From Microbacterium sp. LWH3-1.2 (GTDB lineage: Bacteria > Actinomycetota > Actinomycetes > Actinomycetales > Microbacteriaceae): a DNA stretch of 64,000 nucleotides. Below, piece by piece: positions 7,028 through 31,596 of the stretch. The stretch is taken from positions 806,001-870,000 of the forward strand of contig NZ_JBEGIK010000001.1 in the NCBI RefSeq assembly GCF_040675855.1, given 5' to 3'. A program made the position numbers and the translations under genes. How positions within the stretch are numbered: the first letter of the stretch is position 1; the number at the start of each line of letters is the position of its first letter. A model generated the notes under the pieces. That model saw only the letters and a program-made list of their open reading frames with translations. It was not told the DNA's origin and searched no databases.

Positions 7028-8142
7028 ACGTCACAGCTCCCGCCCTCGACTCCCGCATCGCCGAGTTCGCCGCCGCCGTGCGTGCCGAGCTCTCCGACCT
7101 CCCCGCCGAAGACGTCGACGACCTCGTCGACGGACTCGACGCCGATCTCGCCGAGCAGGCGTCCGAGAGCGACGACTTCGAGCTTCCCGACCCGGTCGCC
7201 TACGCCGCGGAACTCCGGTCTGCGGCCGGACTGCCCGAGAGGACGACGGATGCATCGACCTCTCGTCGTTCGCCGCGCGAGCGGCTGAACGCTCTGTACG
7301 CCCGCATCGCACGTGCCCTGCACTCGTCGAAGGCGGCCACCTGGGTGATCGAACTCTTCGTGAGCCTGCGCCCGGTGTGGTGGATCGCCCGGGGATGGGC
7401 GTTGTTCGTTCTGCTCGCGTTGCCGCTCGGAACGTGGGACACGATCATCGGCTTCCCCGGGCGCAACACCGGCGGCTGGCTGCTGCTCGGCGCCCTCATG
7501 CTGCTCAGCATCGAGTGGGGTCGCGGCCAGTGGGTGCCTGGGCGGGCTCTGCACGTGCTGCGCACCGCGGCGAGCGTTGTCGCGGCCGTCACGCTGCTGT
7601 TCGCGATCCCTGCGACGGTCACCTCGGCCCAGAACGCCGTCGGCGCCGCCTACTACTCCTGGACGACCGTCGACGAGCCGACACCCGGCCTGGCGGTCGA
7701 CGGCACGCGGGTGCGCAACATCTTCGTATACGACGCCGCCGGCAACCCGATCGAGCAGGTGCAGCTGTTCGATCAGGATGGCAGACCCCTCACCACAGTC
7801 TCAGGGCAGGACGCGAGCACCTGGCAGTGGGACGAGTACTTCGCCTACGGCGGCGGACCCGTCCCGGTGCCGCTCGTGATCAACGGCCGCTCGCCGGTGT
7901 GGAACGTCTACCCGCTGCGCGAGCTCCCGTTCGACGCGATCGAGCCCGACCAGGCCGCCGCGATCCTGCCGGCTGCGCCGTTCCCCGACGTTCCGGCTGT
8001 CGACGGGCTGACGAACCCCGTCCCCACCGCGACGCCGAGTCCCGGGGCGGCGACCGACGCGGTGCCCGATCCGACGCCGACGCCCACGCCGGAGGGCGCC
8101 ACGGCGCCCATCGCGAACGACACTGTGGGGGCGGAGAGGTGA
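7024..8142 (+). CDS. HAAS-type signalling-domain membrane protein
   Basis: 372 aa, GTG start at 7024 inside the PadR stop (GTGA overlap). The N-terminal 70 residues, with AELSDLPAEDVDDLVDGLDADL, match the helical HAAS/permease-prefix domain that accompanies PadR regulators. Three or four membrane segments follow (VWWIARGWALFVLLALPLGT; GGWLLLGALMLLSIEW; VLRTAASVVAAVTLLFAIPA). An extracytoplasmic domain of about 150 residues ends in a Thr/Pro-rich tail (PTPTPTPEG). It probably transduces or buffers a signal with the PadR regulator. Its biochemical activity is not known. Confidence 0.8.
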   Translation: MNVTAPALDSRIAEFAAAVRAELSDLPAEDVDDLVDGLDADLAEQASESDDFELPDPVAYAAELRSAAGLPERTTDASTSRRSPRERLNALYARIARALHSSKAATWVIELFVSLRPVWWIARGWALFVLLALPLGTWDTIIGFPGRNTGGWLLLGALMLLSIEWGRGQWVPGRALHVLRTAASVVAAVTLLFAIPATVTSAQNAVGAAYYSWTTVDEPTPGLAVDGTRVRNIFVYDAAGNPIEQVQLFDQDGRPLTTVSGQDASTWQWDEYFAYGGGPVPVPLVINGRSPVWNVYPLRELPFDAIEPDQAAAILPAAPFPDVPAVDGLTNPVPTATPSPGAATDAVPDPTPTPTPEGATAPIANDTVGAER

Positions 8143-8330: not shown

Positions 8331-9758
8331 TCACGCGCGCGCGGCCCACCACTCCCGCAGGCGGCGCTCGGCCTCCTCTTCGCCGACCATGCCCTCGTCG
8401 AGGCGCAGGTCGAGGAGGAACCGGTACGCCTCGCCCACCTCGCGGCCGGGCTTGAGGCCCAGCACCTCCTGGATGCGGTTGCCGTCGAGCTCGGGGCGCA
8501 TCGCGTCGAGCTGCTCCTGCGCGGCGAGCTCGGCGATGCGGCGCTCGATGTCGTCGTAGGCGCGGGCGAGACGCGCGGCCTTCTTGACGTTGCGGGTCGT
8601 CACGTCTGCGCGAGTCAGGATGTGCAGGCGGTCGAGCTCGGCATCGGCATCGCGCACGTAGCGGCGCACCGCCGAGTCGGTCCATGCACCCTCGGAGTAC
8701 CCGAAGAAGCGCAGGTGCAGCTCGATGAGCCGGATCACGGTGGTGATCGTCGCGGAGTCGAAGCGCAGCTCCTGCAGGCGCTTGCGGGCCATCCGCGCGC
8801 CCTTGAGGTCGTGGTGGTAGAACGTCACGCCCCCGCCCGGCTCCAGCCGGCGGGTCGCGGGCTTGCCGATGTCGTGCAGCAGGGACGCGAGCCGGAGCGC
8901 GACGTCGGGTGCGGCACCCGGGTTGCGGGTCTTCTCCAGCTCGATGGCCTGCCGCAGCACCGTGAGGGAGTGCTCGTAGACGTCCTTGTGGTGGTGGTGC
9001 TCGTCGACCTCGAGCTGCAGCGCGGGGATCTCAGGCAGGAACTCGGCCATGAGTCCCGTCTCGACCAGCAGACGGATGCCGCGCACCGGGTCGTCCGTCG
9101 CGAGCAGCTTCACGAGCTCGGCCTGGATGCGCTCGGGGCTCACGATCTCGAGCGTGCGGCGCAGCTCCTGGATCGCGGCCTCGGTGTCGGGGTCGACGGC
9201 GAAGCCGAGCTGCGACACGAAACGGGCGGCCCGCAGCATCCGGAGCGGGTCATCGCCGAAGCTCACGGTGGGGTCGGCGGGGGTGCGCAGCACGCCGCGG
9301 ACGAGATCCTCGACACCCCCGGTCGGGTCGACGAGCGTCTGGCCGGGAACCCGGAGCGCCATCGCGTTCACGGTGAAGTCGCGGCGCACGAGGTCACCCT
9401 CGATGGTGTCGCCGAAGTCGACGGTGGGCTTTCGCGTGACGCCGTCGTAGCTGTCGGCCCGATACGTGGTGATCTCGACCTGCTCGCCGAGGACGCGCGC
9501 GCCGATCGTGCCGAACGCGCGGCCGATGTCCCACTGCGCGGACGAGATGGGCTTCACGATCCGCAGGATGTCGTCGGGGCGCGCGTTCGTCGTGAAGTCG
9601 AGGTCGTTGGTCGGCCGGCCGAGCAGGGCGTCGCGGACGGGACCGCCCACGATCGCGAGGTCGAAGCCGGCGTCGGCGAACGCGCGGGCGAGCGCGGCGA
9701 CGACGGGGGACTCGGCGAGCGCGCCGAGGCGCGCGATGCCCTCGGCCATGTTGAGCAT
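8331..9758 (-). CDS. cca: CCA tRNA nucleotidyltransferase
   Basis: Adds or repairs the 3' CCA end of tRNAs; needed here because the tRNA genes in the window do not encode CCA. 475 aa, standard actinobacterial length. Class II nucleotidyltransferase motifs: GGPVRDALLGRPTNDLDFTT (about residues 38-57) with the catalytic DxD, then RRDFTVNAMALR and the RMLRAARF motif. A C-terminal HD domain has SLLHDIGKP. Two ATGs are possible: 9758 (2 nt after GGAGG) and 9749 (MAEGIARL, better spacing); the difference is three residues. Confidence 0.95.
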   Translation of the reverse strand: MLNMAEGIARLGALAESPVVAALARAFADAGFDLAIVGGPVRDALLGRPTNDLDFTTNARPDDILRIVKPISSAQWDIGRAFGTIGARVLGEQVEITTYRADSYDGVTRKPTVDFGDTIEGDLVRRDFTVNAMALRVPGQTLVDPTGGVEDLVRGVLRTPADPTVSFGDDPLRMLRAARFVSQLGFAVDPDTEAAIQELRRTLEIVSPERIQAELVKLLATDDPVRGIRLLVETGLMAEFLPEIPALQLEVDEHHHHKDVYEHSLTVLRQAIELEKTRNPGAAPDVALRLASLLHDIGKPATRRLEPGGGVTFYHHDLKGARMARKRLQELRFDSATITTVIRLIELHLRFFGYSEGAWTDSAVRRYVRDADAELDRLHILTRADVTTRNVKKAARLARAYDDIERRIAELAAQEQLDAMRPELDGNRIQEVLGLKPGREVGEAYRFLLDLRLDEGMVGEEEAERRLREWWAARA

Positions 9759-9782: not shown

Positions 9783-11333
9783 TCACGCGAATCGCAGGAA
9801 CCCGGCGAACGTCAGCTCGCGCACGCGGGGCAGCAGGTCCGCGCGCAGCGCTGTCGCGTCGACGTCGAGCAGATCGGCGATCGCGTCGACCAGCACCCCC
9901 ACCGGGAGGTCGCCGTCGCACGCCCCGACGAGCGCGGCGAGGCCCGGATCGACGCCGAGCGCCCGGCCGAAGCCGCCGCCCTGGCGCAGCTCGATGACCG
10001 TCGGATCCTCGGCGCCGGGCAGGTGGTGCCGCGCCTCGGTGACATCAGGGGCGACGAGGAGCACGGATGCTGCGAGCCCTGCGTCGTCGAGCACGCTCAG
10101 GCGGTCGTGCGCCTCGAGAGCGGCGGCGAGGTGCGTGCCGAGGGCCTCGCCCGCGAGCGCCGTGTGGAGAGTCTCGTACCGGGCGAGCGTGGGGCTGCCG
10201 TCGGCCGGACGCCGCAGCAGAAGGTAGCCGAAGCCCACCTCGGTCACGGCGCGATCCGCGAAGTCGTCGAGCCAGGCGTCGACGAGTCGTGCGAAGCCGG
10301 GCGTGCCGGGGAGTGTGCCGCCGTCTCGCACCCACAGCTCGGCGTACGACAGCGGGTCGAGGCTCTCGCGCTCGACCACCCAGGCATCGATCGGCACGGG
10401 CGACGACTCGACCCACCCGCGCACCCGCTCGAGCCCGGGCGCGCCGTCCCTGGTCTCCCAGTTGCCCAGCAGCTGCGCGATGCCGCCTGGCGCCAGGTGG
10501 GCGCCGACGCCCGTCACGAAGGCGGCCACGACGTCGTCGCCGACCATGCCGCCGTCGCGGTACTCGTAGGCGGGAACGTCCGCGACCCGGGGCGTGATGA
10601 CGAACGGCGGGTTCGACACGACCCGGTCGAACTGCTGGCCGGCGACCGGCTCGAAGAGGCTGCCGAGGCGCACCTCGATGCCCTCGATGCCGTTGAGGAG
10701 CGCGTTCAGGCGCGTGAAGGAGAGAGCGCGCGGCGAGATGTCGGTCGCCACCACGTGCTCGACGTGCGCGCGGGCGCGGAGCGCCTGGATTCCGCAACCC
10801 GCCCCGATGTCGAGGGCGCGCTCGGCGCGGGTCGGCAGTTGCAGCCCCGCGAGCGTCAGCGAGGCGCCGCCGACGCCCAGCACGTGATCCTCGGGCAGCG
10901 GCCCGCCGAGCGCCGCCTCGTCGAGGTCGCTCGCGATCCACCACTGCGCCGTGATCTCATCTTGGCCGGGCCGGGAGGCGTCGGCGTACGACTGCGGCCG
11001 CACCACGGCGAGCGGGCGCACCTCGCCGCCGTCGACGTCGGCGAGCCCCAGCCGCACGAGTCCCGCTGCGCCGGCTCGCGAGAGCGCCTGGTCAACGGAT
11101 GCCGCGGCCTGCGGCATCCCGAGCACCAGAAGTCTCCCCAGCACGGCGAGGGCGTCGTCGCGACTGCCGAGGGCGCGCGACGCCGGCGACCGGAGGCCTC
11201 GCGCGATCGCGTCGTCGGCCGCGCCGCCCCACGCGTCGCGCAGGGCTTCGGCGGTGAACCCCGCGCCCTGGAGGTCGGCGGCGAGGTCACGGCAGAGGTC
11301 GGTATCCGGTTCGGGAAGCACGGGACCATTCAA
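9783..11333 (-). CDS. SAM-dependent methyltransferase with N-terminal DUF7059-type region
   Basis: 516 aa. A central class I methyltransferase fold carries motif I ALDIGAGCGIQALRARAH and motif IV VVSNPPFVITP, the NPPF signature of enzymes methylating amide or amino nitrogen, such as PrmC-type protein glutamine or RNA base methyltransferases. The N-terminal 150 residues and the C-terminal 150 are conserved in actinobacterial homologues rather than in PrmC itself. It is encoded 24 nt downstream of cca on the same strand (reading leftward, cca is the distal gene) and is divergent from the DUF6049 gene. The true substrate is unknown. Confidence 0.85.
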   Translation of the reverse strand: MNGPVLPEPDTDLCRDLAADLQGAGFTAEALRDAWGGAADDAIARGLRSPASRALGSRDDALAVLGRLLVLGMPQAAASVDQALSRAGAAGLVRLGLADVDGGEVRPLAVVRPQSYADASRPGQDEITAQWWIASDLDEAALGGPLPEDHVLGVGGASLTLAGLQLPTRAERALDIGAGCGIQALRARAHVEHVVATDISPRALSFTRLNALLNGIEGIEVRLGSLFEPVAGQQFDRVVSNPPFVITPRVADVPAYEYRDGGMVGDDVVAAFVTGVGAHLAPGGIAQLLGNWETRDGAPGLERVRGWVESSPVPIDAWVVERESLDPLSYAELWVRDGGTLPGTPGFARLVDAWLDDFADRAVTEVGFGYLLLRRPADGSPTLARYETLHTALAGEALGTHLAAALEAHDRLSVLDDAGLAASVLLVAPDVTEARHHLPGAEDPTVIELRQGGGFGRALGVDPGLAALVGACDGDLPVGVLVDAIADLLDVDATALRADLLPRVRELTFAGFLRFA

Positions 11334-11431: not shown

Positions 11432-13747
11432 ATGATCGTGATTTCACCGCGAGCCCCGCGGCGTGCCCCGCGCCACGCACCGCGCCTCGTGACCGCCGGC
11501 TTGGCGGCCGTGGCGTTGCTCGCCGGGCTTGTGCTGCCGGCCCCGGCGATCGCGGCGGACTCCACGCCGACGCCCTCGCCGACTGCGACCTCCGCCATTC
11601 CCGCCGGGACCACCGTGTTCACCCTGTCACCCGTGGCGAACGGCATCGTGAACCCGGGCGACGCGCTGAGCGCGTCGATCTCGATCCAGAACGGCACGGA
11701 CGCCGAGATGGCGCCCACCACCGTCACGCTGTCGCTCGGGCGCACGCCGATCGCCGACCGCGAGGACCTGGGCGACTGGCTCGACGGCACACCGACCGAC
11801 GTCGCTCTCGAGGCGGTCGCCACCGATGAGATCGCAGCGGTCGAGCCGGGCGGGTTCCAGGTGCGCGGCATCACGATCGCCGCCGACGATCCGGCGCTCG
11901 CGGGTCTCGCTCCCGGCGTCTACCCGCTCGCCGCGTCGTATCCCGGCACGGACGGCACCGTGACGTCGACGAGCACGATGATCGTCCCTCCTGCCGAGGC
12001 GACAGACGTCGGCATCGGCGTGATCGTCCCGATCACCGCGGGCGCTCTCAGCGACGGCCTCCTCACCGCGGAGCAGCTCGCGGAGCTCACCGCGCCCGAC
12101 GGCGACCTCACCAACCAGCTCGACGGCGTGACCGGAACCGCCGCGATCCTCGCTGTCGACCCGGCTGTGCCCGCTTCGATCCGGGTGCTGGGCACGTCGG
12201 CGCCGGAGTCCGCGCTCGAGTGGCTCGCGCGCCTCGAGAGCATCCAGAACTCGCGATTCGCGCTGCAGTTCGGAGACGCCGACGTCACCGCGCAGCTGCA
12301 GGCGGGCCTGCCACGGCCGCTGCAGCCCACGTCCTTCACCGCCTACATGTCGGAGTCCAACTTCGCGACCCCGACGCCGACTCCGACGCCCACCCCGGCC
12401 CCGTCGGACGCCCCCACGACCGCGCCCACCCCGCAGCCCGACTCCGCCCTGCCGAGCACGGACGAGCTGCTCACGGTCGGCCCCGCCACGCGCCAGGGCG
12501 TGTACTGGCCCGCCGAGGGCACCGCGGATGCTGAGATCATCTCGCGCCTCACCGACATCGCCACCACCGACGGCACCGCTCCGGCGACTCTCATCCCTTC
12601 CTCGACGACGGACGCCGGCTCCGACGGCCGCACCGTCTCGGCGCACGGCCGCGTCGGCGCCGGAGAGGTTCTCGTCTACGACAGCGACGTCTCCGCCGCC
12701 CTCGACGACGCATCGCAGCAGGAGGTCTCCTGGCTGCGCGGCGCACCGCTCACCGCCGCGACCGCCTATCTCGCCTTCGCGGCGGCCGAGACGAACGGCC
12801 CGCTCCTCGTCACCGTCGGCCGCGGCGACGGGCGCTCCCGCGTCGAGCTCGGCGCGGCGATCTCCGCCGCCTTCTCCGCACCCGACGTGACCCCCCGGAC
12901 GATCGCGACGGTCGCGGCGGGGGAGGCGTTGGATGTGGAGCTGACCGGCGTCGAGTCCTCGCCGGAGCGCGCGGCCGCAGCATCCGCTCTCGTCGCAGAC
13001 GAAGGCGAGCTCGCGCGGTTCGCGACCATCCTCGACCAGCCATCCCTGCTGACCGGACCGGAGCGCGCCGACATCCTGCAGGTCCTCGGCGTCGCGTGGA
13101 TCGGTGACACCACCTGGCCGACCGTGTTGGCCGAGCACCGCGCCGCGACTGCCGGCACGCTCGACTCCGTCGCCCTGCTCCCCACGAGCCCGAGCGACCT
13201 CTACGGCTCGAGCGCCGCACTGCGGTTCTGGGTGCGCAACGACCTGCCGTACCCCGTCAACCTCGTGCTCTACACGACACGCGACAACCTCCGCCTCGAC
13301 GTGCAGGGCGAGACCCCCATCGTCGCGACGCCGCAGAGCAACACGCGCGTCGAGGTGCCCGTGCAGGCGCGCGTCGGCCGCGGCGACGTCACCCTGACCC
13401 TGCAGCTGCGCAGCCCCGCGTTCGTCGCCATCGGCGATCCGCAATCCGTCGAGGTCAACGTGTACGCCGACTGGGAGGCCGTCGGCATCGCCGCCCTCGC
13501 CGCGCTCGTCGGCATCCTCCTGCTGTTCGGCATCGCGCGTACCGTCCTGCGCGTGCGCCGCCGACGGAAGGCGACGGATGCTGCCGCCCCGGGTGGTGCC
13601 GATGGCGGGACGGTCGCCGGTGCCGAGGCGGGCGTGCTCGGCACCGGAGGGAAGGGTCGGGCCGAGGACGAGGCCGACGACGATGAGGATGGCGCTGGTG
13701 TCGCCGAAGCCGGGGTTCCCGCAGCGACCGACGGGGATGAGCGGTGA
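11432..13747 (+). CDS. DUF6049 family secreted/membrane-anchored protein
   Basis: 771 aa. An N-terminal signal peptide (basic R-rich start, then LVTAGLAAVALLAGLVLPAPAIAA, about residues 20-44) leads into a large extracytoplasmic region interrupted by a Pro/Thr linker (TPTPTPTPTPAPSD, about 310-325). Near the C-terminus a membrane segment (VGIAALAALVGILLLFGIA, about 685-705) precedes a basic and then acidic cytoplasmic tail. The stop overlaps the murJ start by 4 nt, a conserved actinobacterial arrangement suggesting a joint role in lipid II transport or cell-wall assembly. No catalytic motif is visible. Confidence 0.85.
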   Translation: MIVISPRAPRRAPRHAPRLVTAGLAAVALLAGLVLPAPAIAADSTPTPSPTATSAIPAGTTVFTLSPVANGIVNPGDALSASISIQNGTDAEMAPTTVTLSLGRTPIADREDLGDWLDGTPTDVALEAVATDEIAAVEPGGFQVRGITIAADDPALAGLAPGVYPLAASYPGTDGTVTSTSTMIVPPAEATDVGIGVIVPITAGALSDGLLTAEQLAELTAPDGDLTNQLDGVTGTAAILAVDPAVPASIRVLGTSAPESALEWLARLESIQNSRFALQFGDADVTAQLQAGLPRPLQPTSFTAYMSESNFATPTPTPTPTPAPSDAPTTAPTPQPDSALPSTDELLTVGPATRQGVYWPAEGTADAEIISRLTDIATTDGTAPATLIPSSTTDAGSDGRTVSAHGRVGAGEVLVYDSDVSAALDDASQQEVSWLRGAPLTAATAYLAFAAAETNGPLLVTVGRGDGRSRVELGAAISAAFSAPDVTPRTIATVAAGEALDVELTGVESSPERAAAASALVADEGELARFATILDQPSLLTGPERADILQVLGVAWIGDTTWPTVLAEHRAATAGTLDSVALLPTSPSDLYGSSAALRFWVRNDLPYPVNLVLYTTRDNLRLDVQGETPIVATPQSNTRVEVPVQARVGRGDVTLTLQLRSPAFVAIGDPQSVEVNVYADWEAVGIAALAALVGILLLFGIARTVLRVRRRRKATDAAAPGGADGGTVAGAEAGVLGTGGKGRAEDEADDDEDGAGVAEAGVPAATDGDER

Positions 13748-17981: not shown

Positions 17982-19247
17982 ATGACTCTCGACGACGCTG
18001 GCCACGCGCGCCGGGCGGTCGAGGCCGTATGGCGCGACCAGTCCCCCCGCATCGTCTCGGCGCTGGCTCGGCACACCGGCGACTTCGCCTGGGCCGAGGA
18101 TCTCGCCCAGGAGGCGCTCGTCGAGGCCCTCGCCGCGTGGCCGGGCAGCGGCATCCCCGACAATCCCGGGGCATGGCTCATGTCCGTGGCCAAGCGGCGC
18201 GCGATCGACGGGTGGCGGCGACGCGAACGGATGTCGCAGCGCGAGCCGCTCTTCGTGTCGGAGGCCCTCGCGATCGAGGCGATCGACTCGGTGCCCGACG
18301 ACGCCGACCCCGACCGCATCGACGACGATGTGCTGCGTCTCGTCTTCGTCGCGTGCCACCCCGTGCTTCCCGCCCAGACACGCCTCGCCCTGACGCTGCG
18401 CACCGTGGCGGGCCTCACCACCGACCAGATCGCGCGGGCCCTGCTCATGACGGTGCCCAGCGTGCAGCAGCGGATCGTCCGGGCCAAGCGCACACTCGCT
18501 GCGGAAGGCGTGCCCTTCGAGGTGCCGGGCCGCGCCGAGCGCCCGGCGCGGCTTGCGAGCGTACTGCAGGTGATCTACCTGCTCTTCACCGAGGGATACT
18601 CGGCCACCGAGGGGGAGGGTCTCATTCGTCCCGACGTCGCTCGCGAGGCGGTGCGGCTCGGTCGACAGCTGGTTGCGCTCATGCCACGCGAGCCTGAGAT
18701 CTGGTCGCTCATCGCGCTCATGGAGTTTCAGTCGTCGCGCTTCGCGGCCCGCATCGATGCCGAGGGTCTGCCGCTCACCCTCGAAGACCAGGACCGCCGC
18801 CGATGGGATCGCTCCGCAATCACCCGAGGCAGCGACGCGATGAGACGAGCGGATGCCTCGACCCGCGGCCTGGGCTACTACGGCCTGCAGGCAGCGATCG
18901 CGCAATGCCATGCGGTGGCCCCCACGTTCGCCGAGACGGACTGGGAGCAGATCCTTCGGCTCTACGACGCTCTGGAATCGCTCGCACCGTCGGCCGTCGT
19001 TCGCCTCAATCGCGCCGTCGCGCTCTCCATGGCGCGCGGCCCCGAGCCCGCTCTCGCGGTGGTGGATGCGCTCGCACCCGAATTGTCGGGCTTCCGCCCG
19101 TTGCCCGCGGTCCGTGCGGAGCTTCTGGAGCGGCTCGGACGAACGGATGCTGCAGCCGCGGAGTTCCTCGCGGCGGCAGCGCTGCCGGGCAATGCGGCCG
19201 AGGCCGAGGCCCTGCGCCGGCGCGCCGAGGCACTCCGGACGCTATGA
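17982..19247 (+). CDS. ECF-type RNA polymerase sigma factor, ECF42 group
   Basis: 421 aa: an ECF sigma (region 2 with HTGDFAWAEDLAQEALVEAL; region 4 with RTVAGLTTDQIARALLMTVPSVQQRIVRAKR) plus a C-terminal extension of about 200 residues with TPR-like helices (DUF6596-type). That extension defines ECF42 and is thought to stand in for an anti-sigma factor, and none is encoded nearby. The probable target is the DGPF gene at 17138. The 3' end overlaps that of convergent parB by 6 nt. Confidence 0.92.
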   Translation: MTLDDAGHARRAVEAVWRDQSPRIVSALARHTGDFAWAEDLAQEALVEALAAWPGSGIPDNPGAWLMSVAKRRAIDGWRRRERMSQREPLFVSEALAIEAIDSVPDDADPDRIDDDVLRLVFVACHPVLPAQTRLALTLRTVAGLTTDQIARALLMTVPSVQQRIVRAKRTLAAEGVPFEVPGRAERPARLASVLQVIYLLFTEGYSATEGEGLIRPDVAREAVRLGRQLVALMPREPEIWSLIALMEFQSSRFAARIDAEGLPLTLEDQDRRRWDRSAITRGSDAMRRADASTRGLGYYGLQAAIAQCHAVAPTFAETDWEQILRLYDALESLAPSAVVRLNRAVALSMARGPEPALAVVDALAPELSGFRPLPAVRAELLERLGRTDAAAAEFLAAAALPGNAAEAEALRRRAEALRTL

Positions 19248-20231
19248 GGCCTCGAGAGCCCCGTATTCCGTCTCACCGAGCTCAGCGAGGATCCGGTTGA
19301 GGTCCTGAATTGTAGCGAAGTCGATGCTGATCTGGCCTTTTCTTGCAGTCAACGAGATCTTCACGCGGGTGTTGAGCCGGTCGCCCAGGCGTCCCGCGAC
19401 ATCGTCGAGGTGTGCGCGGCGCGAACCGGCTTGCGGCTTCACCGAACGGGTGGGGGAGGCATCCGGAAGCTTTGCCGCCGCCTCCGCGGCACGGACCGAG
19501 AGATCCTCGTTGACGATCTTGTCGGCGAATCGCTGCATGGCCGCCGCGTCTTCGAGCGACAGGATCGCACGGGCGTGCCCGGCGGTGAGCACCCCCGCGG
19601 CCACCCGCTGCTGCACCGGCATAGGCAGCTTGAGGAGGCGGATCGTGTTGCTGATCTGCGGGCGCGAGCGGCCGATGCGGGTGGCGAGCTCCTCCTGCGT
19701 GATGCCGAAGTCCTCGAGCAGCTGCTGGTACGCCGAGGCCTCCTCCAGGGGGTTCAGTTCCGAGCGGTGCAGGTTCTCGAGGAGGGCATCACGGAGCAGG
19801 TGCTCGTCGGCGGTGTCGCGCACGATCGCGGGGATCGAGGAGAGGCCCGCCTCGCGGGCGGCGCGGGTACGCCGCTCACCCATGATGAGCTCGTAGTCGC
19901 CCTTCTCGTTGAGCCGGACCACAACGGGCTGCAGGACGCCGAACTCACGGACACTGTGAACGAGTTCTGCGAAGTGCTCGGGGTCGAAGTTCGTTCGCGG
20001 CTGACGCGGGTTCGGCACGATGTCGTGCGGGTCGATGTGCGCCAGTCGGGCGCCGGGCACATCGACGAGGTCCTCGTGTCCGTCCGGCTCGACGACCTCG
20101 ACGGGCGGCTCCGCTTCGGCCACGGCGACGGCACGAGGGAAGAAGACATCGGCGGGTCGCTCGTCGACCTGCTCGCTGGTCGGGATCAGTGCGCCGATTC
20201 CGCGGCCGAGTCCTGTGCGCTTCGCTGCCAT
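19242..20231 (-). CDS. parB: chromosome-partitioning protein ParB
   Basis: Binds parS, spreads or clamps on DNA using CTP, and drives origin segregation with ParA; 329 aa. The N-terminus AAKRTGLGRGIGALIP is the ParA-interacting leader. The CTP-binding GERRTRAAREAG motif is at about residue 120, the parS-reading helix-turn-helix (LATRIGRSRPQISNTIRLLKLP) at about 185-206, and a C-terminal dimerisation domain ends the protein. ATG at 20231 overlaps the parA stop by 1 nt (a GTG 3 nt upstream is possible). At least eight perfect parS sites lie within 7 kb. Confidence 0.96.
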   Translation of the reverse strand: MAAKRTGLGRGIGALIPTSEQVDERPADVFFPRAVAVAEAEPPVEVVEPDGHEDLVDVPGARLAHIDPHDIVPNPRQPRTNFDPEHFAELVHSVREFGVLQPVVVRLNEKGDYELIMGERRTRAAREAGLSSIPAIVRDTADEHLLRDALLENLHRSELNPLEEASAYQQLLEDFGITQEELATRIGRSRPQISNTIRLLKLPMPVQQRVAAGVLTAGHARAILSLEDAAAMQRFADKIVNEDLSVRAAEAAAKLPDASPTRSVKPQAGSRRAHLDDVAGRLGDRLNTRVKISLTARKGQISIDFATIQDLNRILAELGETEYGALEAS

Positions 20232-21559
20232 CACGCGCCCCTTTCATTCGAGGCGCTGTCGCGCCGGATCATCTCGACAGCCGCTTCGCGGTATGCGATG
20301 GCGCCGGCCGACTGTCCATCGTAAGCGAGAACGGACTGCCCGAAACTCGGCGCCTCCGAGACGCGCACGGACCGCGGGATGATCGTGTCGAGCACTTCGG
20401 TGGGGAAGTGGGCACGCACCTCGTCGGCGACCTGCTGCGCGAGTCTCGTGCGCCCGTCGTACATCGTCAGCATGATGGTCGACAGCTCCAGGCGCGGGTT
20501 CAGATGCTTCTGGATCATCCGCACCGTCCCAAGCAGCTGGCTCAGCCCCTCGAGCGCGTAGTACTCGCACTGGATGGGGATCAGAAGCTCGCTCGCGGCG
20601 GTGAACGCGTTGATGGTGAGCAATCCGAGCGACGGCGGGCAGTCGATGAGGATGAAGTCGAGCTCTCCGGCATTTGTGGTGAGGTACTCGTCGACGGCGA
20701 CACGGAGGCGGTGCTCGCGGGCGACTTGTGACACCAGCTCGATCTCGGCCCCGGCGAGGTGGATGGTGCTCGGCGCGCACAGAAGATTGGGCGACTCGGG
20801 GCTCACCTGGATGATGTCTGCGAGGGGAAACTCGTCGATGAGCACGTCGTACACGCTCGGCGTATCAGCGGTGTGCGGCACTCCCAGCGCCGTCGAGGCG
20901 TTGCCCTGCGGGTCGAGATCGATCACGAGCACCCGAGCGCCGCGCTCAGCCATGGCAGCGGCCAGGTTGACGGTCGTGGTCGTCTTGCCGACGCCGCCCT
21001 TCTGATTCGAGACAGTGAGCACTCGAGTGCGCCCGGTGAGTTCGACGTCGGCTTCTTCGAGGGCTTTGCGACGGGCGGAGAGGTCTGCAAGCTCTCGCGC
21101 GATGGGGGAGTCGTCTTCGTCCTGCGCGAGTGCGGCGCCGTCTTGCTGCACGATGGGGGATTCCTCTTCCTGCGTGACAGTGTCACCCTCGGGCGGTGCA
21201 ATGTCTTCGGGGATGGAGTCACTGTACTCATCCGGTGCGACATCGCCGTCGGAGTCTGGCAATTCGTCCTCGTCGCCCCGCACCGAGGGCTCTTCGGGAA
21301 GGATCTCGTCGGGCCCGGGGAGTTCGCTGTTCGAGGTGGTGTCACCGTCACCGGCGTTCTCGTCGGTGACGGTGTCCTCCGTGACGGGAGACTCCGGCGT
21401 CCAGACCGTCGGCGGCTCATCGGACGAGAAGGATGCGTGAGCCTCAATCTCGTCGGGTTGTTTCACGTGAAACTCTCCCCCGTACCCGAGCCGCTCAACA
21501 TCGTCTTCCACCCTATCCCGCCTTACCCCCATCCCTAGCCGTCGGAGCCACTTATTCAT
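20231..21559 (-). CDS. parA: chromosome-partitioning ATPase ParA with long acidic N-terminal extension
   Basis: 442 aa from the ATG at 21559, which follows TAGGGA; canonical ParA proteins are about 260-320 aa. The ATPase core begins near residue 178 (RVLTVSNQKGGVGKTTTTVN, deviant Walker A at about 187-193) with FILIDCPPSLGLLT and the rest of the family intact. The first 175 residues are unusual: a basic start MNKWLRRLGMGVRRDR, then about 110 residues rich in Asp, Glu and Pro. The RELADLSARRKALEE helix is normal for actinobacterial ParA. A parS site is embedded at codons for E-F-H-V-K-Q (about residues 29-34). An internal start (for instance a GTG near residue 137) would give a more usual protein. 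Confidence 0.92.
   Translation of the reverse strand: MNKWLRRLGMGVRRDRVEDDVERLGYGGEFHVKQPDEIEAHASFSSDEPPTVWTPESPVTEDTVTDENAGDGDTTSNSELPGPDEILPEEPSVRGDEDELPDSDGDVAPDEYSDSIPEDIAPPEGDTVTQEEESPIVQQDGAALAQDEDDSPIARELADLSARRKALEEADVELTGRTRVLTVSNQKGGVGKTTTTVNLAAAMAERGARVLVIDLDPQGNASTALGVPHTADTPSVYDVLIDEFPLADIIQVSPESPNLLCAPSTIHLAGAEIELVSQVAREHRLRVAVDEYLTTNAGELDFILIDCPPSLGLLTINAFTAASELLIPIQCEYYALEGLSQLLGTVRMIQKHLNPRLELSTIMLTMYDGRTRLAQQVADEVRAHFPTEVLDTIIPRSVRVSEAPSFGQSVLAYDGQSAGAIAYREAAVEMIRRDSASNERGA
21460..21473. promoter_or_regulatory. parS site 1 (perfect), inside parA
   Basis: GTTTCACGTGAAAC, the full parS palindrome, lies within the 5' part of the parA reading frame. Confidence 0.93.
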
Positions 21560-22258
21560 GCGTTCCCTACTGTTCCGCGTGGATGATCCACCCTCCCTAG
21601 TCAACCTCGGGCGGCCCGTTCGGGCACGCCAACCCGCCGCCTGAACACGAAGCGGAACCACGCGGATTCTGCCTGTGCCCTGGAGTCGACGCGTATGCGG
21701 GGTCCTCGTGTTTGCCGGCCATGCCGGGCGGCGTGCCCGCGACGCGGAGGATCTGCGAGATCCCCGACTTCGCCCGAACCACCGCCCCCGACGACGCGTC
21801 CTGATCGAGGCCCACTCTGCGGACCAGCAACCAGAGCGGAGGTGCCTGGGAGCGAAGCTGCCTACGCCTTTCCTTTCGTGACGCCGAATCGCGTCCGAGT
21901 GCTCGCTTTTCCCGCGACCGGTCCGCTCCCACGATGCTCCTCCCTCTCCACCGCTCCACGGGCAGTTGACCGTGAAGGTGAGGGTCATCCCTCGACGCAT
22001 ACCTGTCGGCTCGTTGATGCGGCGGCACGATGTCGACCGCCGTCTTCCGGACTGTCACCGGCCATGCACAACGCCTCTCCCGAGCCCAGCGATTACTCTG
22101 CTACGCCGCCATCGGCCGCGACGGTTCGGTTCACACCGCCTCCGCCGTCTTGCCCGCTAGGTGAGAGGAGCTCGGCTGTTCGATCCCCCGTTGTCCCCGC
22201 TCGATGTGGCGCGTGTCAGCACGCGAGCACTGGCGATGGCCCGCGTGAACAGGAGCAC

Positions 22259-22272
22259 GTTTCACGTGAAAC
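22259..22272. promoter_or_regulatory. parS site 2 (perfect)
   Basis: GTTTCACGTGAAAC; intergenic, 700 nt upstream of the parA start. Confidence 0.93.
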
Positions 22273-22506
22273 GTCGGTACGGGACGCGATCACGTGGTCG
22301 TCTACGGGTCCTTGTCACGAGCGCACACCGCAAGTGCGACTTCCCTCGAGCAGCTGCCATCGTTTCTCAGGTTCCACCTGAACCGACTGGTTTGCGGAGT
22401 AGCCCCGTAGCAGCATTGTGCGGGCGGCCGGCCCGCGCCGGAGAGACGTAGCCCGAAGTGGGCAACGTGCGACTCGCGCGGCAGCCAAGACGACCACGTC
22501 TCGCTT

Positions 22507-22520
22507 GTTTCACGGGAAAC
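22507..22520. promoter_or_regulatory. parS-like site 3 (one mismatch)
   Basis: GTTTCACGGGAAAC differs from parS at one central position (T to G), breaking the central CACGTG. It is flanked like the perfect sites (TGTTTC...AAACG), suggesting a decayed or weaker copy. Confidence 0.7.
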
Positions 22521-22800
22521 GGATCACCCGTCCGGGCGTCGGCACGCCAGTTGCACGGTGTGTGCCAGGGAGACCATGCCGGCGTACGGGGATGTGCGAC
22601 CTCCGCACTGCGCAACCCGCCAGCCCCGCTCACCAACGCCGGGCGCATCTCGTCACATGACCAGGAGAGTCAGGCGTGGCGCAGCACCCCACCGACTCGA
22701 AGCGCGCGAGTTCGATTCCCGCCGGAGCGCGATCACGAGCGCGAGACGGCACCGCCCAGCCGGCCGTTGAACCGTTCGCTGTGCCAGCCGCTTCGTCGAT

Positions 22801-22814
22801 GTTTCACGTGAAAC
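22801..22814. promoter_or_regulatory. parS site 4 (perfect)
   Basis: GTTTCACGTGAAAC, 294 nt from site 3. Confidence 0.93.
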
Positions 22815-23091
22815 GGAACTGCTGAACGTGCCCCACGCGTCATCGTGCACTCCGTTTCCCGCACCTCGCGACACCTGGGCGCAAGTCGCACCTCCGACGG
22901 GGCACACCCGGCCGCTCGCTGCACCCATTCCGCCGCTCGTCTCTCTCGCCGGCAGCAGCGCGTGGACCTGAGGAGCCCCCGAGCTCAGCCGGGGCCACAA
23001 GATTCTGCTGCAACCTCGACGGGGGAGCGGCCGGAACTGGCGAGCCGGCGCCAGTCGACGATCGCCGCCTATCGCATGGCCTGCTCGCCCC

Positions 23092-23105
23092 GTTTCACGT
23101 GAAAC
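23092..23105. promoter_or_regulatory. parS site 5 (perfect)
   Basis: GTTTCACGTGAAAC, 291 nt from site 4 and the last site before the transposase remnant. Confidence 0.93.
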
Positions 23106-23489
23106 ATGCTGTCTCTCGGAACCACGATGAAGCGTCGGCCGCTTCCTGGATCCTCTCGGCACTCTCATGGACGCGGGAGGGCCAAGCCGACCGACCTCTC
23201 GTGATCGGGGCTGCGGCTTCAAGAATGTCCAAAACTGAAAGAGAGGATGGCTCTGCGACCCGATCCCAATCGCTGTTGCTGTCCGCTCTGACGTTCGGCG
23301 CCGCAGAGAGCGGCGGATCGCGCCGACGATCAGGTTGCTCCTCGTCGGATGCCTGCGCTGGACTTCACCTCGCGACCGCTTCCTGTCGGGGTGATGTCTT
23401 CCGTTCGTTGACCATCGGTTCCGCGGGCGCCAGTGCTTGAGCCGGCGCCCAGGATGCGTTTATGCCCGGAGACGGTGAGGTGCCGCGGA

Positions 23490-24760
23490 ATGGTGGAGTT
23501 TCTCGACACCGTGCGGGTCAGCCTGTTTGATTATGCCGCGGTCAGTTCGAGGATGCTCACCTCCTCGGCCTCAGCGACGAGCAGTGCCATGGAGTGTTCG
23601 CTGAAGTAGCGGCGGTCGGCGCCGTTCCATTCGTCGTGCTGCTCGATGAGGACGTGGCCGGCCAGGCGTAGCAGCGCCGCCGGGTTCGGGAACGTGCCGA
23701 CGACGTCGGTGCGGCGTTTGATCTTCGTGTTCACCCGTTCCAGCGGGTTCGTGGACCAGATCTGCCGCCAGTGCTCCTGCGGGAACCCGCAGAACGCGAG
23801 TAGGTCGTCCTTGGCATCCTCGAGCATGTCCGCGACCGTCGGGGGCGACTTCATGAGCATGCGCACCACTTCGTGGAACTGGGTGAACACGTACTCGGTG
23901 TCGGGCTGCGCGAAGATCGTGCGGATGATGGACGCGACGATCGGGACGACCGCTCTCGGGACCGCGGCGATGAGCACGTTCCTCATGAAATGGACCCTGC
24001 ATCTTTGCCAGCTGGCGCCGGCGAGGACGTTCTGGATTGCGGCGGTCAGCCCGGTGTGCGCGTCGCTGATCACGAGCTTCACGCCACCCAGCCAGCGGGC
24101 TTTCAAGGAGCGCAGGAACGTGGTGGAGAACGGCTGCGACTCGGTCTCGCCGACCGCGGAGCCGAGCACTTCCCGGCGCCCGTCGGCGGCGACGCCGACC
24201 GTGACCACCACCGCCTGCGACGCCACCCGATGGCAGACGCGGGCTTTGCAGTAGGTCGCATCCAGGAACACATAAGGGTAAGCCGAATCGGGCAGCGGCC
24301 GGTCCCGAAACGCGGCAACGTCCTCGTCCAGATGCGCGCAGATCCTGGACACCTCGGACTTCCAGATGCGCGTGTCGGCGCCGAGCGCCTCCACGAGGTC
24401 GTCGACTTTGCGGGTTGAGACGCCATGGACATATGCCTCCGTCACCACCGCGAACAACGCCTGGTCGACCCGGCGGCGTCGTTCCCGCAGCGACGGGACG
24501 AACGACCCGTGGCGCAGCTTCGGGATCCGCAACCCCAGGTCCCCGGCGGTCGTTGACACGGTCTTCGGTCGGGACCCGTTGCGCAGGGCGACCCGGTCGA
24601 TGCTGCGTTCGTAGGGGCCGGAACGATGGCACACCAGCGTCGACGACACCGAGAGCCCCGTCGGAATCTCCACCACCACAGGGGACGTCACCCTGGAGAC
24701 CTGGACCACCCGCCGTGACCGGCCGTCGAGCTCACGTCGTCCGGCGCGATCGACCACCCG
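23490..24760 (-). mobile_element. truncated IS256-family insertion sequence
   Basis: This span covers the transposase remnant plus the end-like sequence downstream of its stop. The 3' boundary is placed by that sequence; the 5' boundary is uncertain because the partner inverted repeat and the 5' coding end are not detectable. No target duplication could be identified. Confidence 0.6.
23531..24757 (-). pseudogene. IS256-family transposase, N-terminally damaged
   Basis: A 408-codon frame whose residues from about 46 onward (RSGPYERSIDRVALRNGSR) follow the IS256 family closely. The DDE residues are present: D in YVFLDATY (about 166), D in VISDAHTG (about 232) and E in TNPLERVN (about 340), with the FMRNVL and KIKRRTDVVG blocks. 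The first 45 residues do not resemble the family, and roughly 60 usual N-terminal residues are missing. A typical IS end (about 23470-23505, AAACTCCACCATTCC on the minus strand) follows the stop, but no matching repeat is found at the other end. It looks like an element truncated at its 5' side. It lies between parS sites 5 and 6. Confidence 0.8.
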
Positions 24761-24802
24761 CCCGTCGATGGACGCTCACGACATCACGGGGGGCTGAGCT
24801 GT

Positions 24803-24816
24803 GTTTCACGTGAAAC
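24803..24816. promoter_or_regulatory. parS site 6 (perfect)
   Basis: GTTTCACGTGAAAC, just beyond the 5' side of the transposase remnant. Confidence 0.93.
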
Positions 24817-25376
24817 GAACCCCACACCTATCCGCGGCTTCACGGAACTTTTCGACGGCGTGCACCAGACGCCACAGCCTCACGCACGAGGATGTCGTCG
24901 CGGTGCAGGGCGATGCTCGCCCAGCCAGCGTGCATGCGCGAAGATCAGCCCTGCGAACGAGCAACCTGCACCAGCGTGGAGCTCTCCACCAGCAGTCGAT
25001 CGTTCCCACGACCAGTCGGATCGCGGCGCAACGAGCAGCGGAGATCGATAGACGCGGCAGTTTCGCTCGCCCGGTTGGATGCGAAGCCACCCGGCGGGCC
25101 GTCCGGGGCGGTGAGGCGGTGAGTCCCCGATCTGCGCCGCATGCCGACCGACTTCTCACCCTCACACATGTCACGGCGATGCGCATTGCGACCCGGGTCG
25201 AACCGCGACGGCGAGTCAAACGTATGGTTCCCAGAGCGGTACAAAGGCGAGTGGTTCAGCACTCCACGCGTCGCGGCTGAGCGCACACGAGGCGAGGGCC
25301 GATGGAATTCGGATCACACCAACGCTTCTGTGAAGATCTTCGTGGCTATCGGACGTGAGCGATCGACCGCTCGAGC

Positions 25377-25390
25377 GTTTCACGTGAAAC
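25377..25390. promoter_or_regulatory. parS site 7 (perfect)
   Basis: GTTTCACGTGAAAC, 574 nt from site 6. Confidence 0.93.
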
Positions 25391-25890
25391 ACTTTCACGG
25401 CGGATCCGAGACGCCCGAGCTATCCGCGGCCCGAGCTCGTCTTGGGCGTCACCTGGCTGAGAACTCATCGCGTCGAGGCCACCCCGCGGTCCGTGATGCG
25501 TGCTCGTCTGCGTCGCCGATTCCTGGACCCGGGAGAGCCCGCCTTGGCAGGCTGGGCAGTCAGCGGTGATGCGAACGGCCCGCAGCCCGAATTCCGGGCG
25601 ATCGGCATCTCCCGCGCTCGCCCATCCGGGCACGGGGGACAAGAGATCAAATCCGGAGCCCCTGTCCGGCCCGACGGTGCGTGTCGTGTCCGGCAATCAT
25701 GGGGAAGGGCGTCGGCGTCCGGTGGCGAAGCCGGGGAAGGAGGGGCCGCGTGCGCACCCTGGGTCGGCCTGCGCTGATGCGGCGGAACAACAGCGAGAAC
25801 GCCGTGAGGGCGCGGAGCGCGCCCCATGCATGAACATGCAAGTCGAAGCGCTCGTCCGACGGGGGCGAAATCGAGGATGGGCACGGCTCC

Positions 25891-25904
25891 GTTTCACGTG
25901 AAAC
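25891..25904. promoter_or_regulatory. parS site 8 (perfect)
   Basis: GTTTCACGTGAAAC, 514 nt from site 7. Confidence 0.93.
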
Positions 25905-26134
25905 ATGCCGGCTCCATCGCCCTGACTTGATTCGCCACGACCCGTGTGCACAGGCGAAGCCGCCATCCTGCTTCACCCATTACGCACGCGAGTGCCGAGT
26001 CCACCCGGAACACCGACCCACCCGGCCGGATCTCGCAGTGGACCGCATGCCGGCCACCCGGCACCGAAGCCCGACCCGGGGCCGGATCACCCCACCCGTG
26101 CGTGGCCGCCTGGCCGCCTCGGTCACCGGCGGCT

Positions 26135-26764
26135 TCAGCGGACGGTGGCTCGGATGACCCGCGACGGTTCGGGGAGCAGACCGTCGCCGACGATCTCAAC
26201 TCGGGCGTTCGTCACCTTGAAGGTGCGAAGCTGTTTCTGTGCAGCTTCGATCTCGTTGGTGGCGCTCGTTCCCTTGAGGAGGATGAGCTCACCGCCGTCA
26301 CGGACCAGGGGAGCAGTGATCGGGACCAACGTGCGAAGAGCGCTGACGGCGCGCGCAGTCACCGCGTCGAGAACGGGGCCACGCTTCCAGTCCTCCGCCC
26401 GCGCGCGAACCACCTCGACATTGTCGAGCTCGAGCGCCTCGACCTGTTCCGAGAGCCACGCCACACGGCGTTCCATCGGCTCGATCAGCACCCACTCGAC
26501 ATCGGGACGGGCGATCGCGAGCACCAGCCCGGGAAGGCCGGCGCCCGAGCCCACATCTCCGACACGGCCCGAGAACAGGGGCGCGATGATCGCGCTGTTC
26601 AGGATATGACGCGACCACAGACGCGGCGGCTCGAGGGGACCGATCAGACCGCGCTCTTCACCGTGCTGGCCGAGCGCGTCCGCGAACCTCCGTGCGACCT
26701 CGATGCGGTCGCCGAAGATCTCGGCGGCGGCCGCGGGTTCCTGCTCGATCTCGATCATCGACAT
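26135..26764 (-). CDS. rsmG: 16S rRNA (guanine527-N7)-methyltransferase RsmG
   Basis: Methylates G527 of 16S rRNA with SAM; 209 aa, normal length. The class I methyltransferase motif is VGDVGSGAGLPGLVLAIARP (about residues 68-87), preceded by RLWSRHILNS and followed by the RAEDW segment and TARAVSAL, all RsmG hallmarks. The ATG at 26764 has only a weak Shine-Dalgarno; a second ATG lies two codons in. The gene follows jag by 42 nt, a gap containing parS site 9, and is the last recognisable gene before the parS-rich region. Confidence 0.95.
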   Translation of the reverse strand: MSMIEIEQEPAAAAEIFGDRIEVARRFADALGQHGEERGLIGPLEPPRLWSRHILNSAIIAPLFSGRVGDVGSGAGLPGLVLAIARPDVEWVLIEPMERRVAWLSEQVEALELDNVEVVRARAEDWKRGPVLDAVTARAVSALRTLVPITAPLVRDGGELILLKGTSATNEIEAAQKQLRTFKVTNARVEIVGDGLLPEPSRVIRATVR

Positions 26765-26785
26765 TTCCGGTGGCTCAGCACGACT

Positions 26786-26799
26786 GTTTCACGTGAAAC
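26786..26799. promoter_or_regulatory. parS site 9 (perfect)
   Basis: GTTTCACGTGAAAC in the 42-nt gap between jag and rsmG; the outermost site of the array on the dnaA side. Confidence 0.93.
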
Positions 26800-26806
26800 G
26801 AGCGGC

Positions 26807-27325
26807 TCAGCCGCGGCGGATCACCGTGTGACGGTCGGCGCCCTCGCCGTAGGACTCGGACACGAAGCCGCGCTCGGCCACGATGTCGTGGACGACCTTG
26901 CGCTCGTAGCTCGACATCGCGGGCAGTGACGCCTGCGAGGCGCCGTCATCCAGACGCGCGATCGCGCGGTCGACGAGAGCAGTCAGCTCGCCCTGGCGCG
27001 CGTCGCGCGAGCCACCGATGTCGAGGATCAGGCGGGAGAAGCGGCCGGTGCGGTTCTGCACCGCGATGCGCGTGAGCTCCTGAAGCGCCTGAACGGTGTC
27101 GGGAGCCGCGATCAGGGCGACCGATCCGCCGGAGGGTGCCTCGACCGAGACATAGGCGCGGCCGGCGCGTACGTCGAGATCGAGGTCGCCGTCGATGTCG
27201 GCGATGTCGAGCAGACCCTCGATGAAGTCGGCGGCGACGTCGCCTTCCTCCTCGAGCTGGGCGACGGTCGCGGGGATCCGCTCCTCGCGCGCATCGGCAG
27301 GGGCGTACTCAGGGGACGTGGTCAT
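26807..27325 (-). CDS. jag: Jag/KhpB-like KH-R3H RNA-binding protein
   Basis: 172 aa. A KH-like domain (about residues 35-100, with DLDVRAGRAYVSVEAPSGG and LQELTRIAVQNRTG) is followed by a C-terminal R3H domain (PAMSSYERKVVHDIVAERGFV, then a basic end HTVIRRG). It binds single-stranded RNA in the cytoplasm; homologues influence cell division and envelope homeostasis. The acidic start lacks the Jag_N domain of firmicute proteins, as is usual in actinobacteria. It sits in the conserved order yidC-jag-rsmG and is probably co-transcribed from rpmH/rnpA. Confidence 0.92.
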   Translation of the reverse strand: MTTSPEYAPADAREERIPATVAQLEEEGDVAADFIEGLLDIADIDGDLDLDVRAGRAYVSVEAPSGGSVALIAAPDTVQALQELTRIAVQNRTGRFSRLILDIGGSRDARQGELTALVDRAIARLDDGASQASLPAMSSYERKVVHDIVAERGFVSESYGEGADRHTVIRRG

Positions 27326-29605: not shown

Positions 29606-29614
29606 TTATCCACA
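29606..29614 (+). promoter_or_regulatory. DnaA box upstream of dnaA
   Basis: TTATCCACA is a perfect 9-mer DnaA box. Its position next to the dnaA promoter candidate suggests autoregulation. Confidence 0.8.
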
Positions 29615-31118: not shown

Positions 31119-31596
31119 AGCGTCCTCCACAACCCTCGAGGGGCCCGTGCGCGACGCGCGCGGGCCCTTCGGCGCATATGCCTGAAGAAGTTCTTGACAC
31201 GCGCGGGGAGCAGGGCCATCATTTCGGTTCTTCACAGTGTGGAAAACCTGTGGATAACTCTCCCAAGCTGCGGAAACCGCTGTGAACGAGCGGGGGAGAC
31301 CTGTGGATGGATTGCGGAATCCACAGGTCTTGTCATTCGTCTTTCCGACTGCTCTCCTGAGCGTCTCCACAACTCACACGCGTGTGGTTTCCGTCTCCCG
31401 ACTGGTGAGGCGACGGTTGTCCACAGTTTCCACAGCCGTTAACACCATGACAAGAAATCTTTGAGATGAACCCCGTCCGATCACCTTTGCGGTGGACAAC
31501 CCCCGTCACCGGAAGCGGACTGGCAATCTCGGAGGCTGGCACTAGCATGAGAACCCCGAGCCCGCAGTCGAAGGGCCCGCTGCAGAGGGAGCGTTC
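31119..31596. other. replication origin oriC
   Basis: 478-nt dnaA-dnaN intergenic region. Two perfect DnaA boxes are seen, TGTGGATAA (31249-31257) and TTGTCCACA (31417-31425). Near matches lie at 31238 (TGTGGAAAA), 31302 (TGTGGATGG), 31317, 31363, 31426 and 31491 (GGTGGACAA), on both strands. An A/T-richer stretch around 31438-31468 after the last clustered box is the likeliest unwinding element. Location, box cluster and flanking genes make the assignment firm; box affinities are not known. Confidence 0.9.
31141..31167 (+). terminator. hairpin terminator after dnaA
   Basis: GGGCCCGTGCG (31141-31151) pairs with CGCGCGGGCCC (31157-31167), one G-U pair, 5-nt loop, 22 nt after the dnaA stop. 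No long T-run. It would shield oriC from dnaA transcription. Confidence 0.7.

Follow-up and report, generated by a model that had tools for sequence, protein, structure and literature searches.

A stretch of 64,000 nucleotides from Microbacterium sp. LWH3-1.2 (contig NZ_JBEGIK010000001.1, positions 806,001 to 870,000; in the following, the window) raises the question why bacteria carry many parS, the putative loading sites of the partition protein ParB, when one often suffices: nine of them lie within 5.3 kb at and around the gap between rsmG and parA. A scan of the window bears out the initial annotation, in that eight copies of the 14-mer GTTTCACGTGAAAC are exact and a ninth (GTTTCACGGGAAAC) carries one mismatch; allowing up to three mismatches, 11 matches are found where 1.17 are expected, a number reached by none of 100 shuffles. 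What that annotation missed is that the rsmG-parA gap is non-coding, contains an insertion sequence and can be aligned to one congener only, and that gap length and site number covary among relatives. We consider it likely (at a probability of roughly 0.8) that an ordinary ParABS chromosomal centromere has here been enlarged into a fast-evolving, satellite-like regional form, in which putative ParB sites are preserved individually. The sites are palindromic and listed without strand, each with its ortholog in L133, the corresponding locus of a sister genome (G329).

26786..26799: parS, exact, in the 42-bp jag-rsmG spacer; L133 ortholog at 5492, one mismatch
25891..25904: parS, exact, in the gap; L133 ortholog at 6463, exact
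25377..25390: parS, exact, in the gap; L133 ortholog at 7135, exact
24803..24816: parS, exact, in the gap; L133 ortholog at 7914, exact
23092..23105: parS, exact, in the gap; L133 ortholog at 8390, exact
22801..22814: parS, exact, in the gap; L133 ortholog at 9978, exact
22507..22520: parS, one mismatch, in the gap; L133 ortholog at 10279, exact
22259..22272: parS, exact, in the gap; L133 ortholog at 10580, exact
21460..21473: parS, exact, within the parA frame, where it reads FHVK(Q); L133 ortholog at 11904, exact

Successive sites are 799, 248, 294, 291, 1711, 574, 514 and 895 bp apart, which gives a density of 1.4 per kb. They had been described as packed between jag and parA at intervals of 248-1711 nt. 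The values hold, but the longest interval includes the insertion sequence and measures only 476 bp in L133 (between sites 7914 and 8390); similarly, seven of the nine sites do occupy the rsmG-parA gap, whereas the two outermost lie within the parA frame and in the jag-rsmG spacer, respectively. The site at 22507 is probably a decaying parS copy, since its ortholog in the sister genome is exact. When the complete genome (3,936,381 bases in 2 contigs, 99.99% complete) was searched with one mismatch allowed, as had been proposed, no site outside the nine was found; two further matches, at 2.71 and 3.22 Mb, have two mismatches.

The evidence for individual preservation of the sites comes from comparison with relatives. 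A search with 1,860 of the 4,575 gap bases against 366 genomes of the genus (its own included) gave matches at E<=0.001 in 54, but the body of the gap is matched at length only in its own genome and in G329; a few others match the parA leader and the rest only short pieces. The flanks of the window and of L133 are 93.6% identical, and each of the nine window sites is matched by position in L133, seven of the nine being identical in both. Between these two loci 1 of 98 parS columns differs, compared with 553 of the 2,518 other gap columns (22%) and 97 of 674 fourfold-degenerate sites in four genes (14%). L133 has two extra parS, in a 0.4-kb segment without counterpart in the window. Across 17 greedily chosen, non-overlapping species pairs, aligned with seeds barred from parS, the proportions are 2/490 for parS columns and 1,162/5,887 for the others, and conservation ends sharply at the edges of the 14-mer, save for a mild outer T/A preference. 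In the clade of the window, where 13 of 15 loci have gaps longer than 4 kb, only 4.5% of the gap can be aligned in the median of the 91 pairs formed by 14 loci, and 15% at most; parA genes in this clade are up to 95% identical, and control spacers next to dnaA can be aligned from end to end with L035 and L036, at 92-96%. Judged from these alignments, purifying selection apparently keeps the individual gap parS while the surrounding DNA drifts, and the filler, which takes up insertion sequences, diverges at least as fast as fourfold-degenerate sites do.

The density of the array had been regarded as exceptional, which the survey of relatives contradicts: clustering is usual in Microbacterium and is seen in the other Microbacteriaceae genera fetched, and 14 of 74 loci are denser. 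Of 149 Microbacterium genomes, 143 contain the exact 14-mer, in 2-14 copies; the median for the 134 with a completeness of at least 95% is 6, compared with 3 in 245 entries from other Microbacteriaceae genera. The comparison draws on the best 80 of 279 loci, a choice that favours relatives of the window; seven in which no ParA core was in reach were dropped (L044, L048, L056, L061, L086, L096, L108), and the remaining 73 together with the window make 74. L100, with a partial ParA match and genes in its gap, is part of the set used for rank correlation and is left out of the tree and of pooled counts. As counted, gap length ends at the ParA core and hence includes the ParA N-terminus. With L133 added and L100 removed, rsmG is separated from the ParA core by 161 to 7,818 bp, with 16 of 74 loci at 4 kb or more and 14 below 300 bp; the latter carry 1-3 exact parS in this interval and are thereby denser than the window, and compact relatives have 3-4 parS within ~0.2 kb.

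The comparison of the rsmG-parA gap in related Microbacteriaceae thus shows this kind of array to be common, yet it brings out the covariation that had escaped notice. Gap length and exact parS number are correlated (Spearman 0.86, 74 loci, L100 included), and independent contrasts, based on a midpoint-rooted FastTree tree and on parS counted up to one mismatch, give r 0.70 (p 4e-12, 73 contrasts), with signs that agree in 56, disagree in 12 and tie in 5. Long gaps occur in several separate branches of the tree, and within the genus the gap holds a graded series from 1-3 to 12-18 sites. The pooled gaps (180,790 bp) contain 435 exact, 63 one-mismatch and 11 two-mismatch parS, where 0, 0 and 1.2 are expected; over 493 sites the flanks lean to an outer T (59%) and A (64%). 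Outside the genus, the gap exceeds 1 kb in 12 of 20 regions that were hand-picked from listed places and are not a random sample, and a class-wide sample has the 14-mer in 120 of 148 genomes, including one genus of 6-10 Mb genomes, probably Streptomyces, with 8-33 copies.

Several observations made during the survey stand apart. One 96% complete genome of the same genus (G041) has no exact 14-mer, perhaps because it uses a variant site; five genomes of only 1.3-1.9 Mb from one other Microbacteriaceae genus (G370, G453, G515, G565, G609) carry 9-20 exact parS, a high number for genomes so small. In G066 (C132, C134), L056, L086 and L108, contigs stop within the array or close to it, and repeats there may break short-read assemblies, so that parS would be undercounted. 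Two records titled Planococcus sp. APC 4015 (L056) and Stenotrophomonas maltophilia P13 (L074) contain Microbacterium-type jag-rsmG-parS loci and are probably mislabelled or contaminated. A spacing of sites more even than random was considered and rejected: the combined p is 1e-7 over 22 loci, of which 10 fall below 0.05, but the window has 0.42 and three loci exceed 0.7, and the null model ignores relatedness and tandem growth.

How arrays lengthen can be read from the segments between sites. Of 331 pairs of adjacent inter-parS segments, 57 are homologous; they come from 25 of 70 loci of the genus, and 48 of the 57 are in register with a flanking parS; controls gave 0 of 225 coding pairs and 4 of 245 random cross-species pairs. 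Non-adjacent segments within one genome match in 96 of 1,081 pairs. The clearest case is L072, for which Tandem Repeats Finder gives repeat periods of 113-138 bp, the unit containing a parS. Because neighbouring segments are homologous in so many loci, tandem duplication accounts for at least part of array growth, as shown in relatives and, by extension, presumably also in the window and L133; two equal spacings in L133 (301 and 301 bp) hint at the same process and are only suggestive.

The gap itself and its insertion sequence have the following extent.

21560..26134, no strand: rsmG-parA gap of 4,575 bp, in which nothing but the insertion sequence looks coding (codon model, Rfam)
23447..24702, minus strand: insertion sequence of IS256/Mutator type (PF00872, E 9e-113), outer bounds taken from the break in the alignment with L133

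Under a codon model trained on neighbouring genes, gap windows outside the transposase score mostly between -0.37 and 0.02, and the 5th percentile of known genes is 0.26. Among 54 loci with gaps of at least 1 kb, 20,040 of 182,593 bp are coding-like, most of which belongs to insertion sequences, the ParA N-terminus or L100. No Rfam family matches positions 21000-27000 at E<=1 and ARAGORN finds no tRNA in the gap, on which grounds a structured RNA or a tRNA remnant there was rejected; an ARAGORN call at 12776-12857 falls inside a coding frame and was disregarded. A scan of the gap and the parA leader revealed no consensus promoters, and 4 terminator-like sites where 2.5 are expected. In the pooled gaps, the search for other shared motifs returned as top k-mers only variants of parS, unspecific GC-rich words and sequence of the parA leader. 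The gap cannot be singled out as an exceptional non-coding stretch: its longest run measures 1,830 bp, compared with 1,530 bp in a 400-kb sample of the genome, and the scan is unspecific, with 112,560 of 400,000 bases in such runs. The transposase frame extends from 23531 to at most 24757, the true start probably lying further inside, and no second copy of the insertion sequence was found in the genome. L133 lacks this insertion and has an IS481-type element (PF13011, rve) elsewhere in its gap; Mutator-type (IS256-type) transposases also lie downstream of rsmG in L080 and L044, and the L044 element is presumably within the gap, the parA of that locus being out of reach.

A compact ParB-loading centromere near oriC, as proposed initially, is the natural reading of the array because consensus parS lie beside parAB, near the spacer with DnaA boxes, and constitute the whole complement of the genome; only the claim of a special density has to be dropped. 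By established ParB biochemistry, each parS would load ParB-CTP clamps, which would slide onto adjoining DNA; ParA would then move the ParB-coated region, and this region would, as in other bacteria, load SMC-ScpAB. In the genus, the centromere, at first a few sites on either side of rsmG, would have become a regional satellite-like array through repeated tandem duplication of parS-bearing pieces, with selection retaining ParB sites and little else. Several observations weigh against this interpretation or restrict it. Adjacent-segment homology is absent from the window and L133, so that neighbouring units are homologous only in the 25 other loci counted above. Many of the species pairs compare the same parA-embedded site and one (L049-L072) compares repeat units, without which the counts become 2/322 and 994/4,989; parS have been lost in some aligned pairs (three in L050-L063, four in L050-L060, one each in L049-L050 and L049-L053). 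The conserved control spacers flank dnaA and are themselves functional, which makes them a generous control, and the filler of short gaps aligns well (L075-L090 96%, L058-L063 91%), so that fast turnover belongs to the expanded clade and not to the whole genus. Finally, the scores of gap windows lie near those of shuffled DNA (median -0.36) but exceed them, in a few windows up to the 99th percentile of the shuffles or beyond, and stay far below those of genes.

More tentatively, and at rather less than even odds, the length of gene-free DNA and not only the number of parS could be under selection: ParB clamps from many sites would need a transcription-free track on which to slide, and such domains would arise by satellite-like tandem duplication while their filler turns over freely.

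It is unlikely that the gap has instead enlarged neutrally, by insertion and duplication without benefit, with parS rising in number as passengers. Tandem units carrying parS do exist, insertion sequences accumulate in the gap, and extra sites could be redundant, given that other bacteria can live with a single parS: one parS sustains segregation in Corynebacterium glutamicum, with altered structure (PMC7083940), and a single parS of the cluster was reported to be sufficient in Pseudomonas aeruginosa (PMC4368675). Redundant copies should, however, decay like their surroundings, whereas parS columns differ at 1/98 against 22%, relics in the pooled gaps are few (11 each with two and three mismatches), and the clade of the window has kept array length and site number after nearly complete turnover of the filler. 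Still less probable is a tuning of ParB-loading number to chromosome size or growth rate, with the gap simply providing room for additional sites that would spare the genes; across the 134 genomes of the genus with a completeness of at least 95%, exact parS number does rise with genome size (Spearman 0.34, p 8e-5), but this correlation is weak, uncorrected for relatedness and well below that with gap length, and genomes of 3.9 and 4.4 Mb (G011, G079) have three parS. That the gap represents decayed former genes or a mobile island with an incidental parS count is very improbable, in spite of its insertion sequence and of the lack of copies elsewhere in its own genome beyond a 31-bp match, as the codon model and Rfam reveal no gene remnants, its G+C is that of neighbouring DNA, and the same gap is expanded at the same place in many congeners with parS throughout.

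Two sites of the presumably enlarged centromere may mark its original state. The jag-rsmG spacer holds a parS in 62 of 74 loci and the parA-embedded parS reads FHVK/E in 57, both being present in 46; this two-anchor state is also seen in compact relatives from other genera (L152, L153, L155, L158) and may be ancestral. Directly before the parA-embedded parS, 33 of the 74 loci have a codon usable as parA start (ATG in 13, GTG in 20), preceded in most of eight examples by a purine-rich, ribosome-binding-like sequence. In those 33 loci parS would form the first parA codons, and because of this position within the frame, ParB loading at the embedded site could affect parA expression. In the clade of the window, the site lies ~30 codons in, after a conserved leader.

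A clustered parS array upstream of parAB is an already known kind of arrangement, and what seems new is its graded, satellite-like enlargement within one genus; none is described in the open-licence literature searched, a scope that does not extend to the main parS survey, that of Livny et al. 2007. The window has the attributes of chromosomal ParABS systems, i.e. parS palindromes near oriC, a ParB with N-terminal, helix-turn-helix and dimerisation domains, and a ParA Walker ATPase encoded with parB. As in Bacillus subtilis, the archetype of the 16-bp site, the 14-bp core is the same, the outer T and A lean is similar, and among solved structures the ParB is nearest to a Spo0J chain (6sdk). 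In B. subtilis, parS are spread over a large origin region. Eukaryotic satellite centromeres share tandem growth, fast-changing filler and a conserved short protein box, as an analogy only: there is no homology of parts, and here spacing is irregular, in units of 0.1-0.5 kb with one ParB box each. One of the closest arrangements is that of Myxococcus xanthus, where many parS are likewise crowded into a few kb near the origin and upstream of parAB (22 in 3 kb, ~4 kb from parA); its sites are more numerous and denser, with the consensus TGTTCCACGTGGAACG, and the accessible text of that account (PMC3899335) does not mention turnover of the filler or a series of lengths in related organisms, both reported here. 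C. glutamicum resembles the window in its actinobacterial ParABS and in its ten parS near oriC, nine of the ten being intergenic, but these occupy ordinary spacers between genes over 35 kb, 73 kb from oriC (PMC7083940), in contrast to nine in 5.3 kb. The findings suggest that bacterial centromeres can evolve like satellites, and since a single genus provides a graded range of both gap length and site number in a conserved neighbourhood, the question why bacteria carry many parS becomes testable.

The surrounding genes follow the minus-strand order jag, rsmG, gap, parA, parB.

19242..20234, minus strand: parB (PF02195, PF17762, PF23552, all over cut-off)
20231..21559, minus strand: parA (PF13614, E 5.7e-58), with a ~149-residue N-terminal extension preceding the conserved ATPase core
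21560..21640, minus strand: conserved parA leader with GCGGCGGGTTGGCG, GGTTGACTAG and, before the ATG, a ribosome-binding site
26135..26764, minus strand: rsmG (gidB; PF02527, E 1.1e-44)
26807..27325, minus strand: jag, R3H protein (PF01424)
31119..31596, no strand: dnaA-dnaN spacer with two DnaA boxes, at 31249 and 31417

The dnaA-dnaN spacer is probably oriC, on account of its DnaA boxes, and lies 4.5-10 kb from the parS array; a third box at 29606 is upstream of dnaA. The best match of RsmG (96%) is in L033, and the nearest named genomes are Microbacterium. ParB, whose match to 6sdk has E 3e-50, contains the GERRxR motif. A search that covered only ScpA of SMC-ScpAB found it encoded in the genome (PF02616, 147 bits).

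The parA and parB frames overlap, and the ParA translation contains KGGVGKTT. Its N-terminal extension (21112-21559 in the window) varies from 149 to 228 residues in nine clade members and is absent in compact species. The start codon is at 21559, and an AAGGA-like site precedes the start in most relatives. The leader is nearly the only part of the gap alignable throughout the clade, and together with the first 34 parA codons (21460-21640) it is unusually conserved across nine relatives, with atypical codons; fourfold-degenerate sites are invariant at 10 of 14 positions in these codons, compared with 32 of 157 in the core. This unusual conservation and codon choice suggest a second, DNA- or RNA-level function for the start of parA and its leader.

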